Source of the DNA: Candidatus Desulfofervidaceae bacterium
Lineage (GTDB): Bacteria; Desulfobacterota; Desulfofervidia; Desulfofervidales; Desulfofervidaceae
DNA: 14,781 bases
Direction: 5' to 3'
NCBI GenBank assembly: GCA_021160485.1
Contig: JAGHCL010000085.1
Span: 1-14,781 of the forward strand
Below the pieces are notes generated by a model that saw nothing but the letters and a program-made list of their open reading frames with translations, was not told where the DNA came from and ran no database searches. The translations under genes and the position numbers were made by a program. Below are positions 1,719 to 7,333 of the stretch, one piece after another (the first letter of the stretch is position 1; every line of letters starts with the position of its first letter).

Positions 1719-4106
1719 TCAAGCCCATTCGCTTCGCAGAAGATATCCTCCTTTTTGACCTCCCTCCGGACCCAACTCGATAATGTAATCAGCTGCTTTT
1801 ATTATCTCTGGGTGATGTTCAATCACAATGACGGTATGCCCTCTGGCAATAAGTCTGTCCAAAAGAAGCAAAAGATGATTTATATCCTCTAAATGCAACC
1901 CCATCGTGGGTTCGTCCAGGATATAAATAGTATGACGAGCATTTTTACGGCTCAATTCTTTTGCCAGTTTCAATCGTTGCACTTCACCCCCAGAAAGAGT
2001 GGAAACTGGTTGGCCCAAATGTAAATAACCCAATCCCACTTCTACCAGAGTTCCAAGTTGTCTTTTCAGTTGAGGAATATGACGAAAGAACTCATAGGCC
2101 TCAATGGCCGTCATATCCAACACATCAGCAATATTTTTTCCTTTAAATTTAATTTCTAATGTATCTTCATTAAAACGCTTCCCCTGACAGGCCTCACAGG
2201 TAAGATAGACATCTGGCAAGAATGGCATTTCTATTTTAATTACTCCCTCACCCTGGCAGCTCTCACACCGTCCGCCCTTAACATTAAGACTAAATCTATC
2301 TGGAGTATAACCTCGAGCCCGGGCCTCGGGTAGTTTGGCAAATAATTGCCGGATATAGTTAAAAATGCCTGTATAGGTAGCAGGATTAGACCTATGGCCT
2401 CTTGTTATGGGCCTGGCATCAACCAAAACGACATGCTTAACTTTTTCAATCCCTTTGATGCTATCTATCCCAATTGTTGTTTTTTTCTTTCCATAAAGAT
2501 GTTGTTTTAAATACTGATATAAAACACCAATAATCAGACTACTTTTCCCACTCCCACTTACCCCACATACACAGGTAAAACGATTTAGGGGAATTTTAAC
2601 GGTAATATCTTTAAGATTATTCACCGCCGCCCGTTCTATCACTAGATAACTATTAGTCAAAGCAAGTTTTTTTCGCTGATAAATTCGTTTCTTACCTGAA
2701 AGGTACTGACCAGTAATGGTATCACTTTCTTTGAGCATCAGGGGCGTACCAGTAAAGGTAATCCTGCCTCCCTTTTCCTCTGACCCAGGTCCGATTTCTA
2801 TTACATAGTCGGCACTTAAAATCACTTGTAAATCATGCTCAACTACAATGACCGTGTTGCCCAAATCTTTCAATGCTCTTAAACAAGTAATAAGTTGCTC
2901 CACTTCCTTTGGATGAAGACCGGTAGTGGGTTCGTCTAAAATAAAAATAACATCGCTCAGGGAACTGTTGATGCACATTGCCAATAAAAGACGCCTATAT
3001 TCTCCGGTAGCAAGTTCTGAGATACTCTGGTTAAGAGTAAGGTAACCCAGACCCATCTTTTGTAGGTTACCTGCTTTACTTTTCATCTCCTGCCAAATGG
3101 GTTCTGCAATCTTCTTCTGTCGAGAAGTTAAGACAATTGTGTCAAAAAAAGCAAACATCTCCGTTATAGATAGGCCTGCCAAAGAGGAAATATCCTCACC
3201 TGCTATTTTTACAGCCAGCGCCTCTGGCCTCAGCCGCTTACCAGCACAGGCAGGACATACCTGTTTCCCTGTTTTTCCCAAGCCCTGACACAAATGACAT
3301 GCACCCAGAGGAGAGTTAAAAGAAAATAGAGTAGGGCTGATAGGAGGGAAATTAAAACCACATTGAGGGCATATAGCTTTTAAACTAAAAAATAGTGTTT
3401 CCTTTTCAGGTAACTCTACTTTGAGTTTGCCTCCCGAGAGCTTTAAGGCCAACTCTACTGAATCCCTGAGCCTAGTTTCAATCCCGGGTTTGACAATCAA
3501 ACGATCAATAATCACTTCTGGATTGTGCGGGATTGCCGGAGGTTCTTCTTCGGTCAAATCATAAATACGGCCATTTACTTTAACCTTTATAAACCCATCT
3601 TTTAAATAATCCTTCCACCATTCCTTTTTATCTGAAGGAGGCAGTGGGGCCAGTAAAATGATTCTTTCTCCCTTAGGTAGGGAGAGAATTTCCTGAACAA
3701 TTTCAGGAATGGTATGAACAGATAGGGGTTTTCCACATTGAGGACAATGAGGGATGCCTATTTTGGCATAAAGGACACGTAAAAAATCGTATATCTCTGT
3801 CAGGGTACCTACAGTAGAACGAGAAGAAAATAAACCTTGCTGTTGCTTTAAGGCCAAAGCAGGAGAAAGACCGGAAATTGCTTTCACTTTGGGTTTGGCA
3901 AAGGGAGGAAACTCTTTTCTTACTGAAGAAGACAGGGTATTTAAATATCGTCTTTGGGCTTCTTTATAAAGCACATCAAACACCAGGGTGGATTTACCTG
4001 AACCACTTACCCCGGTAATGACAACAAATTTACCTTTGGGAATAACAACATTAATGTCCTTTAAATTATGCTCTGTTGCTCCGTGAATAATAAGTTCCCC
4101 TTGCAT
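1719..4106 (-). CDS. uvrA: Short UvrA-family excinuclease ATPase lacking the insertion domain
   Basis: A 795-residue tandem ABC ATPase of the UvrA family (DNA damage recognition in nucleotide excision repair); ordinary UvrA is about 940. The first Walker A is GVSGSGKST at 32-40 and the first Walker B ILDEP at 389-393. The second Walker A is GVSGSGKSS at 515-523, with LSGGE at 704-708 and ILDEP at 729-733. The UvrB-binding region (about 116-245) is present, as are the zinc cysteines C246/C249/C270/C273 and C614/C617/C637/C640. Between CHLC (270-273) and CPAC (284-287) there are only 10 residues; E. coli UvrA has well over 100 there, the DNA-contacting insertion domain. The first signature is LATGEYRRLLLA (365-376) instead of LSGGEAQRIRLA. 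It may be a paralogue rather than the main UvrA. The ATG at 4106 is preferred over an in-frame TTG at 4154 that would lie inside the tRNA, because a promoter points exactly at 4106. Confidence 0.85.
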   Translation of the reverse strand: MQGELIIHGATEHNLKDINVVIPKGKFVVITGVSGSGKSTLVFDVLYKEAQRRYLNTLSSSVRKEFPPFAKPKVKAISGLSPALALKQQQGLFSSRSTVGTLTEIYDFLRVLYAKIGIPHCPQCGKPLSVHTIPEIVQEILSLPKGERIILLAPLPPSDKKEWWKDYLKDGFIKVKVNGRIYDLTEEEPPAIPHNPEVIIDRLIVKPGIETRLRDSVELALKLSGGKLKVELPEKETLFFSLKAICPQCGFNFPPISPTLFSFNSPLGACHLCQGLGKTGKQVCPACAGKRLRPEALAVKIAGEDISSLAGLSITEMFAFFDTIVLTSRQKKIAEPIWQEMKSKAGNLQKMGLGYLTLNQSISELATGEYRRLLLAMCINSSLSDVIFILDEPTTGLHPKEVEQLITCLRALKDLGNTVIVVEHDLQVILSADYVIEIGPGSEEKGGRITFTGTPLMLKESDTITGQYLSGKKRIYQRKKLALTNSYLVIERAAVNNLKDITVKIPLNRFTCVCGVSGSGKSSLIIGVLYQYLKQHLYGKKKTTIGIDSIKGIEKVKHVVLVDARPITRGHRSNPATYTGIFNYIRQLFAKLPEARARGYTPDRFSLNVKGGRCESCQGEGVIKIEMPFLPDVYLTCEACQGKRFNEDTLEIKFKGKNIADVLDMTAIEAYEFFRHIPQLKRQLGTLVEVGLGYLHLGQPVSTLSGGEVQRLKLAKELSRKNARHTIYILDEPTMGLHLEDINHLLLLLDRLIARGHTVIVIEHHPEIIKAADYIIELGPEGGQKGGYLLRSEWA

Positions 4107-4142: not shown

Positions 4143-4235
4143 TGGAGGGAACAAGGGGAATTGAACCGCCTTTGACCTTTTTAGGGTCAGCCAACGGGTT
4201 TGCGGCCCGCGGGGTGCACCAGCACCATTGCCCCC
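4143..4235 (-). tRNA. Sec-like cysteine tRNA (anticodon GCA, long variable arm, 8/4 fold)
   Basis: A 93-base gene including an encoded CCA. I fold it as follows: acceptor GGGGGCAA/TTGTTCCC (8 pairs, two G-U); one linker T; D-stem GGTGC/GCACC with a 4-base TGGT loop; anticodon stem GCGGG/CCCGT with loop CCGCAAA; variable arm TGACC/GGTCA with a 7-base loop; T-arm GG(C)GG-TTCAATT-CCCC, that is 4 pairs with one bulged C; discriminator U73; CCA. The 5-bp D-stem with a tiny loop, the long variable arm and the 8-bp acceptor are traits of bacterial tRNA-Sec. The GCA anticodon and U73 are the main CysRS identity elements, while SerRS and SelA expect G73. Published surveys (Mukai and colleagues) describe minor 8/4 cysteine tRNAs with one bulge and Sec-mimicking cysteine tRNAs in delta-proteobacteria. 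Position 33 is C, not U, so its decoding ability is uncertain. It has its own promoter. Confidence 0.85.
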
Positions 4236-4319: not shown

Positions 4320-6386
4320 TTATATCGGAATTTTACTTAGATCAGCAACTTTAAGGAAAAGCTGTTTCACCTGCGTAAGCAGGGCAAGGCGATTTTTCCG
4401 GAGAACTTCATCATCCACCATCACCATGACATGGTCAAAGAAGTCATCAATAAACGATTTCAGTCCACCCAGTGTCTCTAACGCCTCTTTATAAGACTTT
4501 TCTACAAGCAGTTTCTCCACCTTTTCCTTTGTTTCCAGATATTTCTCATAAAGGCTTTTTTCTTCAGGGGCAACAAACAGTTCAGGTTTAGGAGGTGCAG
4601 TCACAGGGGCTTCAATAATTCGGTGTGCCCGTTTATATGCAATGACCAGAGGCTCAAATTGGGCTGATTTAGAAAAGGTTGTAAGGGCTTCTGCTTTGGC
4701 AAAGGCAGCCGGAATATCTCCATCAAATACAGCTAAAATGGCTTCGGTAACAGCATAATCATTACCTTTTTCCATAAGCAAGTGAGCTAGGCGATTTTTG
4801 AAAAATTGGAGAACTTGAGTTTTAATCTCTTCTTTTTTTGCCTTAAACCGATCGGCATAAGCCTTTAATCCCAATTCAATTAAAGATAATAAAGATAATG
4901 GAATGTCCTTTTCATTTAAAATACGCACTATACCAATGGCCTGTCGGCGTAAGGCAAAGGGATCGGTCGTACCTGTAGGAGTGAGTCCTACCCCAAAACA
5001 GCCAATGATAGTGTCTATTTTGTCAGCCAGGCTCAGGAGGGCCCCGGCAAAACTTTGAGGCAACTCACCACCAGCCTCGGTGGGTAAATAATGTTCTGAA
5101 ATCGCCCGGGCAACTTCCTCAGGCTCTCCCTGCTTTTGGGCATAAATACCCCCCATGATACCCTGGAGTTCAGGGAATTCATTAACCATCTCGGTAGTTA
5201 AATCTGCCTTACACAGAAAAGCAGCTTGCACAAATGTATCTTTTTTTTCGGGCAAAGTGACTTCTGCCAGCCAGGCGCAAAGCTGCTTAAGCCGTTCGGT
5301 TTTTTCCCATACTGTCCCCAAATCTGCTTGAAAAATTACTCCTTTAAGTTGAGATACACGATTGGAAAGTGGTGTTTTTAAATCACTTTCGTAGAAAAAT
5401 CTTGCATCAGCCAGGCGGGCACGTAACACCCTTTCCAAACCTGTTTTTACCGAATCCAAATCCGTTACCGGCGTATTGATAACAGCCACAAAAGCAGGTA
5501 ATAAATGTCCATCTATATCAGTAATAGCAAAATATTTCTGGTGGTGTTTCATAACCGTAATTAAAACAGCCTCAGGAAGATTAAGAAATTCTTGGTCAAA
5601 CTGTCCTGCCACAGCCACCGGATATTCTACTAAAAAATTGACCCAGTTAAGCAAATCCGCATCCAACAAAGGTTTTCCATTGGTAGCTTGAGCTGCCTTT
5701 TCTACTAATTCAACAATGAGTTTTTCTCTTTTCTTGTGGTCAACAATCACATTGTATTTTTCTAAGGTAGGAAGATAGTTATCGGGGTGAGAAACAATAA
5801 TAGGTTCTTTGGTTACAAACCGATGTCCATAGGAAACATTCTCACTTTTTATCCCATCTAAAGAAAGAGGGATGGTCTTTTCATCAAGCAGGGCCAATAT
5901 CCAGTGGATAGGACGGGCAAAACGGATTTTTCCTGTATGCCAACGCATGGATTTGGGAAAGGAAAGAGAAAGAATATATCCTGGGAGCAATTCTGCTAAC
6001 ACTTCGGCAGTAGGCCGACCAGTTTCATGAATTTTTACTCCTACATACTGCCCTTTGGGTGTATCTATCACCTGTAATGCTTCTACACTTACCCCCTGCT
6101 TCTGGGCGAACCCAAAGACAGCCTTTGTTGGTTTACCTTCATTATCAAAGGCGACTCTATAAGGCGGCCCAATAACTTCCTCCACTTTATCGGCCTGTTT
6201 TTCAGGCAAACCAGTCACAAAAACCACTAACCGTCGGGGAGTCGCCAGGGGGTTAATATGTTTATAACTTAACCCGGCTTCTGCTAGCTTTTTTGCCAGC
6301 AGGGTCTCCATATCTGCGAGGATTTTAGGAAAAATGCTAACCGGTAACTCTTCTGTGCCTATTTCTAAAAGTAATGTCTTACTCAT
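4320..6386 (-). CDS. glyS: Glycine--tRNA ligase, beta subunit
   Basis: A 688-residue beta chain of the bacterial heterotetrameric glycyl-tRNA synthetase, which with GlyQ charges tRNA-Gly. It starts with the family hallmark [14 protein letters not shown] and has typical internal blocks: PTRRLVVFV-like (TPRRLVVFV, near 48-56), [31 protein letters not shown] and [17 protein letters not shown]. The C-terminal third is the tRNA-binding/anticodon region. Full length, no gaps. Its ATG overlaps the glyQ stop in an ATGA junction, with aaggaaaag as ribosome site, indicating coupled synthesis of the two subunits. Confidence 0.97.
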
Positions 6387-7258
6387 CTTTTCCTTTTTAA
6401 CAGGGGATATCCCAATTTTTCTCTCTGGGCAAGATATACTTCAGCTGCCATACGTGCCAGACGCCGCACCCTAGCAATATATTGTGTCCTTTCGGTAACA
6501 CTAATAGCACCCCTTGCATCAAGGAGATTAAAGATATGCGAACATTTGAGGCAACATTCATATCCAGGTAAAATAACCCCTGCCTGTAATAATTTTTCGC
6601 CCTCTTTTTCAAAGTCATTAAATAAGCGTAAGAGCACATTCACATTAGCCAATTCAAAATTATATTTAGAACCCTCCAATTCTGCCTGAAAATGGATGTC
6701 ACCATAAGTGATTCCAGGGGACCACTGGATTTCAAAAACATTATCTACGCCCTGAAGATACATGGCGATGCGTTCAAGGCCATAAGTGATCTCAGCAGAA
6801 ATGGGATCAAGGTCAATACCACCTACCTGTTGGAAGTAAGTAAACTGGGTCACTTCCATGCCATCAAGCCACACCTCCCAGCCCAGACCCCAGGCACCAA
6901 GGGTGGGTGATTCCCAATCGTCTTCTACAAAGCGCACATCATGTGCTTTTAAATCAATCCCCAAAGCCTCAAGACTTTCCAAATACAAATCCTGTACATC
7001 CAGGGGAGAGGGTTTTAAAATGACTTGGTATTGATAATAATGCTGAAGGCGGTTGGGATTCTGACCATAACGCCCATCTGTTGGGCGTCGAGAGGGTTGC
7101 ACATAGGCCACTCGCCAAGGCTCAGGTCCCAAGACCCGCAAAAAGGTTGCGGGGTGAAAAGTCCCTGCGCCTACTTCTATGTCATAAGGCTGTTCAATTA
7201 CACAGCCCTGACTAGCCCAATACCTTTCCAGAGCAAATATAATTTCCTGAAAATACAT
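6383..7258 (-). CDS. glyQ: Glycine--tRNA ligase, alpha subunit
   Basis: A 291-residue catalytic alpha chain of the alpha2-beta2 glycyl-tRNA synthetase; it forms glycyl-adenylate. From the ATG at 7258 the protein begins [19 protein letters not shown], the usual N-terminus, and carries [44 protein letters not shown], and [15 protein letters not shown]. The frame stays open to a TTG at 7318, which would add 20 residues not seen in the family. The shorter start is chosen from homology and because a promoter ends exactly there. There is no Shine-Dalgarno sequence before the ATG, so translation is probably leaderless. Confidence 0.96.
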
Positions 7259-7265
7259 GGGCTGT

Positions 7266-7294
7266 GAATTACCATCGGAATGAACAATTGTCAA
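7266..7294 (-). promoter_or_regulatory. Promoter of glyQS, leaderless arrangement
   Basis: TTGACA at 7294-7289, 17 bases, then TAATTC at 7271-7266 and seven bases to the glyQ ATG at 7258. The distance from the first T of the -35 to the A of ATG is 36, the same as for the uvrA-like gene. No ribosome site is present. The -10 is only a partial match (TA plus one more position). Confidence 0.6.
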
Positions 7295-7333
7295 CTGCGA
7301 AAGTTCAGACTTTTTCAATTTGAGTAAGACAAA

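Follow-up and report, generated by a model that had tools for sequence, protein, structure and literature searches.

The window, that is, the whole stretch of 14,781 nucleotides analyzed, is contig C36 of a draft Candidatus Desulfofervidaceae genome (1.55 Mb in 219 contigs, 81.3% complete), and it holds a real gene for a Sec-shaped cysteine tRNA, flanked by a UvrA-like gene and glyS-glyQ. The features discussed below are as follows.

1719..4106, minus strand: UvrA-like gene, downstream of the tRNA (TIGR00630, 1006 bits, cut-off 729.8)
4143..4235, minus strand: Sec-like tRNACys gene of the selC*/tRNAReC class, CCA included (Rfam tRNA-Sec, 51.3 bits; class model R1, 98.1 bits)
4146, minus strand: discriminator U73, followed by the encoded CCA at 4145-4143
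4168, minus strand: bulged C in the T-stem, read from the sequence
4201..4203, minus strand: anticodon GCA, read from the sequence, in the loop CCGCAAA
4204, minus strand: C33 replacing U33 in the loop sequence, common to the second copy on contig C57
4245..4273, minus strand: promoter-like TTGACT-N17-TAAAAT just upstream of the tRNA (shuffle scan)
4320..6386, minus strand: glyS, the upstream neighbor (TIGR00211, 844 bits)
6383..7318, minus strand: glyQ (TIGR00388, 499 bits)

The family matches bear out the neighbors named in the initial annotation, a UvrA-like gene and glyQS. The UvrA-like gene was taken to begin with the ATG at 4106; a start at the listed TTG (4154) would make the gene overlap the tRNA. 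The tRNA gene is solitary, with uvrA next to it and no adjoining selB*. Around glyS in four genomes of the same family (G001-G004), tblastn detected no uvrA within 1.5 kb and the class model detected no class tRNA, a type to which ARAGORN is blind; in G005, the comparison covers only 281 bases past glyS. The promoter scan returned one site against 0.6 (sd 0.7) expected in shuffles, which by count is within chance, so the weight of this site lies in its -35-like block, TATTTGACTTAT, which is common to the window, C57 and G004 copies.

Read directly, the tRNA is 93 bases long on the minus strand, with its 5′ base at 4235 and its encoded CCA at 4145-4143. Its acceptor stem has 8 bp, two G.U pairs among them, its 5-bp D-stem closes a 4-base loop, its variable stem has five paired positions and a C.A at the sixth, and its T-stem, GG(C)GG/CCCC, carries the single bulged C; every fold element that the initial annotation had described, the 5-bp variable stem included, is therefore present, as are GCA (4203-4201) and U73 (4146). 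The Rfam tRNA-Sec model scores the gene at 51.3 bits (E 4.8e-8), above its gathering score of 47, so that in the covariance-model check suggested by the same annotation the molecule does not fall below tRNA level; ARAGORN reported no tRNA in the whole window. The Rfam alignment pairs A4236 with U4146, but the better reading, given the CCA at 4145-4143, has U4146 as U73 and base 1 at G4235. The molecule differs from canonical bacterial tRNASec (G73 and UCA) in having U73 and GCA, from standard tRNACys (7/5 branch, short variable loop) in its bulged 8/4 branch and long variable arm, and from the allo-tRNAs (SerRS identity, G73) in its U73. It has the 8-bp acceptor stem, 4-bp bulged T-stem and long variable arm of selC* tRNACys, reportedly named tRNAReC by Vargas-Rodriguez in 2018, together with the U73 and GCA (or UCA) of that class, except that its bulge is C where a review names A51a. 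That review describes the class by U73, GCA or UCA, the A51a bulge and selB* (PMC7609411). By sequence and context, the window tRNA belongs to this published class, and the kinship proposed in the initial annotation, to the minor 8/4 cysteine tRNAs that Mukai and co-workers described, is supported.

An exact anticodon-arm pattern, run over a named genome collection, yielded 71 stretches, a set limited by that pattern, and the class model accepts the tRNA in 60 of them (E 0.001). Twenty-five class members of the 8/4 type, the window tRNA included, fit a 28-pair structure with 98.9% paired cells, against 43.3-61.9% for slid structures on the same sequences; 15 pairs have double changes, and 70 cells are double-changed as compared with a shuffled mean of 17.1 (0/500), the structure having been drawn from the same 25 sequences on which it was tested. 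The stems thus covary in relatives, another check that had been proposed; the evidence lies in the acceptor, D and variable stems, since the T and anticodon stems hardly vary. Among 395 genomes of the phylum, 66 match the class model at 1e-7, the lower matches including canonical tRNASec. The strong matches (at least 83 bits) number 38, in 37 genomes, this one alone having two; 26 have GCA and 12 UCA, 36 have U73 and two have A, and 33 are bulged and five are of an 8/5 type without a bulge. The bulge base is A in 32 of the 33, with C confined in this phylum set to the window copy; C recurs in one stretch of the named set (L113). A second set of Sec-like GCA tRNAs (L091, L097, L112, L118, L126, L132, L133, L135, L137, L145, L147, L148 and L153), with ends mostly of the GGCCGG type and 39.7-57.3 bits under the class model, comes from metagenome-assembled genomes titled Acidobacteria, Planctomycetota, Spirochaetes, Syntrophaceae and others.

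Co-occurrence with SelA was tested in 39 genomes, 36 of which have it: G293 and 35 of the 37 strong-match genomes. The misses are G010 and G081, of one genus (79% and 62% complete), and G001, which is 99% complete and has a tRNA of the 8/5 type. In G001 (L061:4632-4725, L084:4066-4159, L168), SelB and a canonical tRNASec accompany this U73/GCA tRNA, with no match to SelA or to a TGA-bearing FdhA; the genome has masked stretches that could hide selA.

A second tRNA-Sec match in this genome (58.6 bits), outside the window and absent from the initial annotation, as was the base at position 33, lies on contig C57. It likewise has GCA, U73, CCA and C33, scores 108.1 bits under R1 compared with 98.1 for the window copy, and precedes the listed selB* reading frame by 24 bases on the same strand. 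Its SelB* is a 653-residue SelB homolog (TIGR00475, 304.9 bits, cut-off 242.25), and the downstream selB* stated for some delta-proteobacterial groups is therefore found at the C57 copy and not at the window copy; no cysS is among the reading frames listed on C57. Canonical SelB (TIGR00475, 390.9 bits) is on a separate contig, C54, SelA on C116 and CysRS on C38, and an FdhA-like gene with one in-frame TGA, below the curated TIGR01591 cut-off, is on C69. A second CysRS-like match above the family cut-off (C153:3193-4575 in this genome) lies in frames of 776-795 residues in all five family genomes searched, including G002, which has no class tRNA.

Of the Sec machinery and canonical tRNASec in whose company the class is found, the search for partners recommended in the initial annotation recovered selA and selB, while neither a standard tRNACys nor a canonical tRNASec was seen in this 81.3%-complete draft, from which only 16 tRNAs were read (a 17th, a partial match, is not counted). 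Both are likely gaps of the draft. Each of G001-G004 has a standard tRNACys, which together with the low tRNA count makes the absence of this tRNA uninformative, and each has a canonical tRNASec with UCA and G73. The latter gene is located beside ispH-ubiA in G001, G002 and G004 and adjoins an integrase-like gene in G003; a search of the draft, run without a positive control, did not find the ispH-ubiA locus gene either. We do not claim a loss of canonical tRNASec from this genome, given that its neighbor in three of four relatives is missing too.

The gene is a variant of the published class, and what is new here is that both copies carry C33 where U33 is expected. C33 occurs in two of the 38 strong phylum matches, both from this genome, and U33 in all 16 other tRNAs read in it. 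In the pattern set, 13 of 71 stretches have C33, and the class model accepts two of these as tRNAs, L117 (Desulfofundulus thermobenzoicus) and L125 (a Zipacnadia MAG), the only C33 cases among the 60 named-set tRNAs. Sequencing error is an unlikely cause, since the base recurs in the second copy on another contig. U33 makes the U-turn contacts, and mammalian initiator tRNA has C33 (PMC8080527). Among the literature matches listed, we recognized no paper on C33 in this class or on the class in Desulfofervidaceae, and the primary papers could still show it.

SelB-like matches were found in the fetched stretch, sometimes a short one, of 24 of the 71 class rows; the match in L113 is a weak fragment, and three of the loci are counted twice. 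A tree that left out L102 (a duplicate of G383) and G104, G327 and L159 (no usable frame) places 20 SelB* and 21 SelB on opposite sides of one 100/100 branch, with two rows long. The first position of the LGFA motif is L or I in 21/21 SelB and P, S, A or V in 20/20 SelB*, and the SRKY lysine of the last winged-helix domain is K in 21/21 SelB and 0/20 SelB*. Going by SelB structures, these sites presumably lie close to the amino acid and to the SECIS RNA. SelB domain IV comprises four winged-helix domains and recognizes SECIS (PMC8124441). Three residues at the ligand site are mostly shared with SelB (in SelB*, D of IDRV is kept in 20/20 and R in 14/20, and R of GQR in 20/20), which speaks against a wholly new pocket and gives no sign of a Cys-specific one. 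The positions at which SelB* departs from SelB make Cys selectivity and a separate mRNA signal testable.

The histories of the two proteins are in conflict. This genome (G000) and G004 share 93.8% identity in SelB*, against 72.7% in SelB, 71.9% in SelA and 67.8% in GlyS, whereas G003 and G004, listed in one genus, share 59.8% in SelB* and 71.3% in SelB; the SelB tree pairs G003 with G004 and the SelB* tree pairs G000 with G004, both at 100/99. A single 2,377-bp block of 92.3% identity between C57 and G004 spans the tRNA and selB*; beyond it, the stretch compared shows no match, and the neighbors of the C57 cassette differ from those in G004. The simplest reading of these comparisons is that the tRNA-selB* cassette moved between these lineages. 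Contamination of C57 as the source of the conflict is not favored, given the different neighbors and the presence of C33 in the window copy, on another contig; the identities of the C57 RuvB (76% to G003, 82% to the next named relative, Ca. Desulfofervidus auxilii) do not settle the matter because the database is clustered at 90%. The tRNA-selB* pair was also observed in L103, a MAG placed in Actinomycetota (Ca. Geothermocultor).

No recoding target mRNA was found in class-bearing loci among frames with in-frame TGA or at formate dehydrogenase sites. Of the 357 TGA-spanning open frames in these loci, those that match from one locus to another are, among the matches listed, mostly near-identical copies in close relatives, with no target in common. 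In L069, L102 (the same contig as L230) and L108, the tRNA lies ~100 bases downstream of the end of a Cys-type formate dehydrogenase-like gene. As a target this gene was rejected: the codon at its site is TGC, and the 48 bases that start there give z scores of -0.29, 1.55 and 0.42, with no SECIS-like signal; the UGA FdhA sites of four family genomes give -1.47 to 0.05 in the same test, which thus has little power. In L095, near 831 on the plus strand, a peroxiredoxin-like frame has its in-frame TGA where the active site is expected and probably encodes an ordinary selenoprotein. Genes near the tRNA in seven of 35 loci (L072, L129, L140, L155, L222, L229 and L235), which we take to be 2-hydroxyacyl-CoA dehydratases of the double-cubane type, are accompanied by an activator-like ATPase in five of the seven.

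We consider it likely that the window carries a second, probably functional Sec-like tRNACys gene whose product, charged with cysteine, would be delivered by SelB or SelB* for recoding. CysRS, for which U73 and GCA are identity elements, would charge the tRNA with cysteine. Through its 8-bp acceptor stem, long variable arm and short bulged T-stem, the tRNA would be routed to SelB/SelB* and away from EF-Tu, and cysteine would enter at marked sites, either (i) SECIS-bearing Sec UGA codons, as for the published relative, or (ii) sites marked by a signal particular to SelB*. The C33 of the two copies may adapt the anticodon loop to this decoding or weaken ordinary UGC/UGU decoding. Support for the recoding role comes from the fold and identity bases, class covariation, a C33 paralog upstream of selB*, a genome with SelA, SelB, SelB*, CysRS and UGA-FdhA, the SelA found in 35 of 37 strong-match genomes, the clean split between SelB* and SelB, the pairs kept in the window copy and the published member that decodes UGA. 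Counted against it are the position of the window copy away from selB*, its two G.U acceptor pairs and variable-stem C.A, the lack of a second strong copy elsewhere in the phylum, a promoter-like count within chance, structure trials at 9.1% and 2.3%, the shared ligand-site residues, the absence of a target mRNA among those sought and the canonical tRNASec missing from the draft. Of the roles that the initial annotation had offered, insertion of cysteine at SelB-type Sec sites fits this set of partners and the published activity of a class member, while nothing was found in support of a general second cysteine donor or a regulatory role.

The C57 copy could alone work with SelB*, the window copy being a recent duplicate drifting toward a pseudogene, which we think unlikely. 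The window copy is solitary and scores below the C57 copy; its stems contain two G.U pairs and a mismatch, its bulge base is unusual, and it differs from the C57 copy at eight positions, as compared with two between C57 and G004. Every other genome with a strong phylum match has just one such match. Yet seven of the eight changes that separate the window copy from a presumed ancestor (G004 given C33) fall in stems and break one pair, leaving 27 of the 28 intact, with both partners changed in two pairs. In 200,000 trials with changes placed at random within stems, pairing was preserved as well in 1.0%; the share is 9.1% when changes may fall anywhere and 2.3% when the C57 copy is taken as the ancestor. 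U73, GCA and CCA are retained, and the -35-like block matches that of other copies. The window copy is therefore probably a lineage-specific, structurally intact duplicate that would still be functional. Nor do we expect an extra tRNACys that reads UGC/UGU in general translation via EF-Tu, a very improbable role even with GCA, U73 and no standard tRNACys seen in the draft: the relatives G001-G004 each carry the standard tRNA, only 16 tRNAs were read, the class keeps its Sec-like fold and, in 24 of 71 rows, includes a SelB-like gene within the stretch fetched, and a class member does not interact with EF-Tu, as stated in review passages. SerRS requires G73, and U73 in both copies, against G73 and UCA in the four family tRNASec, makes it extremely unlikely that this is a tRNASec inserting Sec at UGC/UGU; the Sec-like fold, the SelA and SelB of the genome, and the existence of such a tRNA in Aeromonas salmonicida (per the review passages) speak for that role.

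A bolder extension of the recoding proposal, which we put forward tentatively and regard as rather doubtful, is that the tRNA and SelB* make up a mobile cassette of two genes that recodes at an mRNA signal of its own. Switch 1 of SelB*, near the amino acid, would be reshaped, its SECIS-reading domain would differ and C33 would help to confine the tRNA to SelB*-dependent sites. If so, recoding with sulfur would run through a second channel next to that for Sec, amplified here by a solitary extra tRNA gene. The review passages cited here describe the class and tests of it, not the role of Sec-like cysteine tRNAs in their own hosts. In this genome, two tRNA copies with an abnormal anticodon loop can be studied next to a matched pair of SelB and SelB*, with signs that the tRNA and selB* travel together.

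Among known systems, as far as the source passages describe them, selC* tRNACys (Mukai 2017) is like the window tRNA in its Sec-like fold, 8-bp acceptor stem, 4-bp T-stem with one bulge, U73 and GCA, with selB* directly downstream, as here at the second copy; the present case departs from it in the C33 of both copies, the bulged C in place of A in the window copy, and the two copies in one genome, one without selB*. A published class member decodes UGA with cysteine via SelB, according to the review passages. The selC*-selB*-cysS* operon of Desulfobacterales shares the selB* partner found beside the second copy, but here the anticodon is GCA, not UCA, there is no A1:U72 pair and no cysS is listed on C57 (PMC7609411). 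The GCA tRNASec of A. salmonicida likewise combines a Sec-like tRNA with a Cys anticodon but carries Sec, whereas U73 here points to CysRS. Finally, allo-tRNAs (8/4 or 9/3) resemble the window tRNA in its 8/4-type acceptor branch but have SerRS identity, in contrast to the Cys identity bases and bulged T-stem seen here (PMC7609411).
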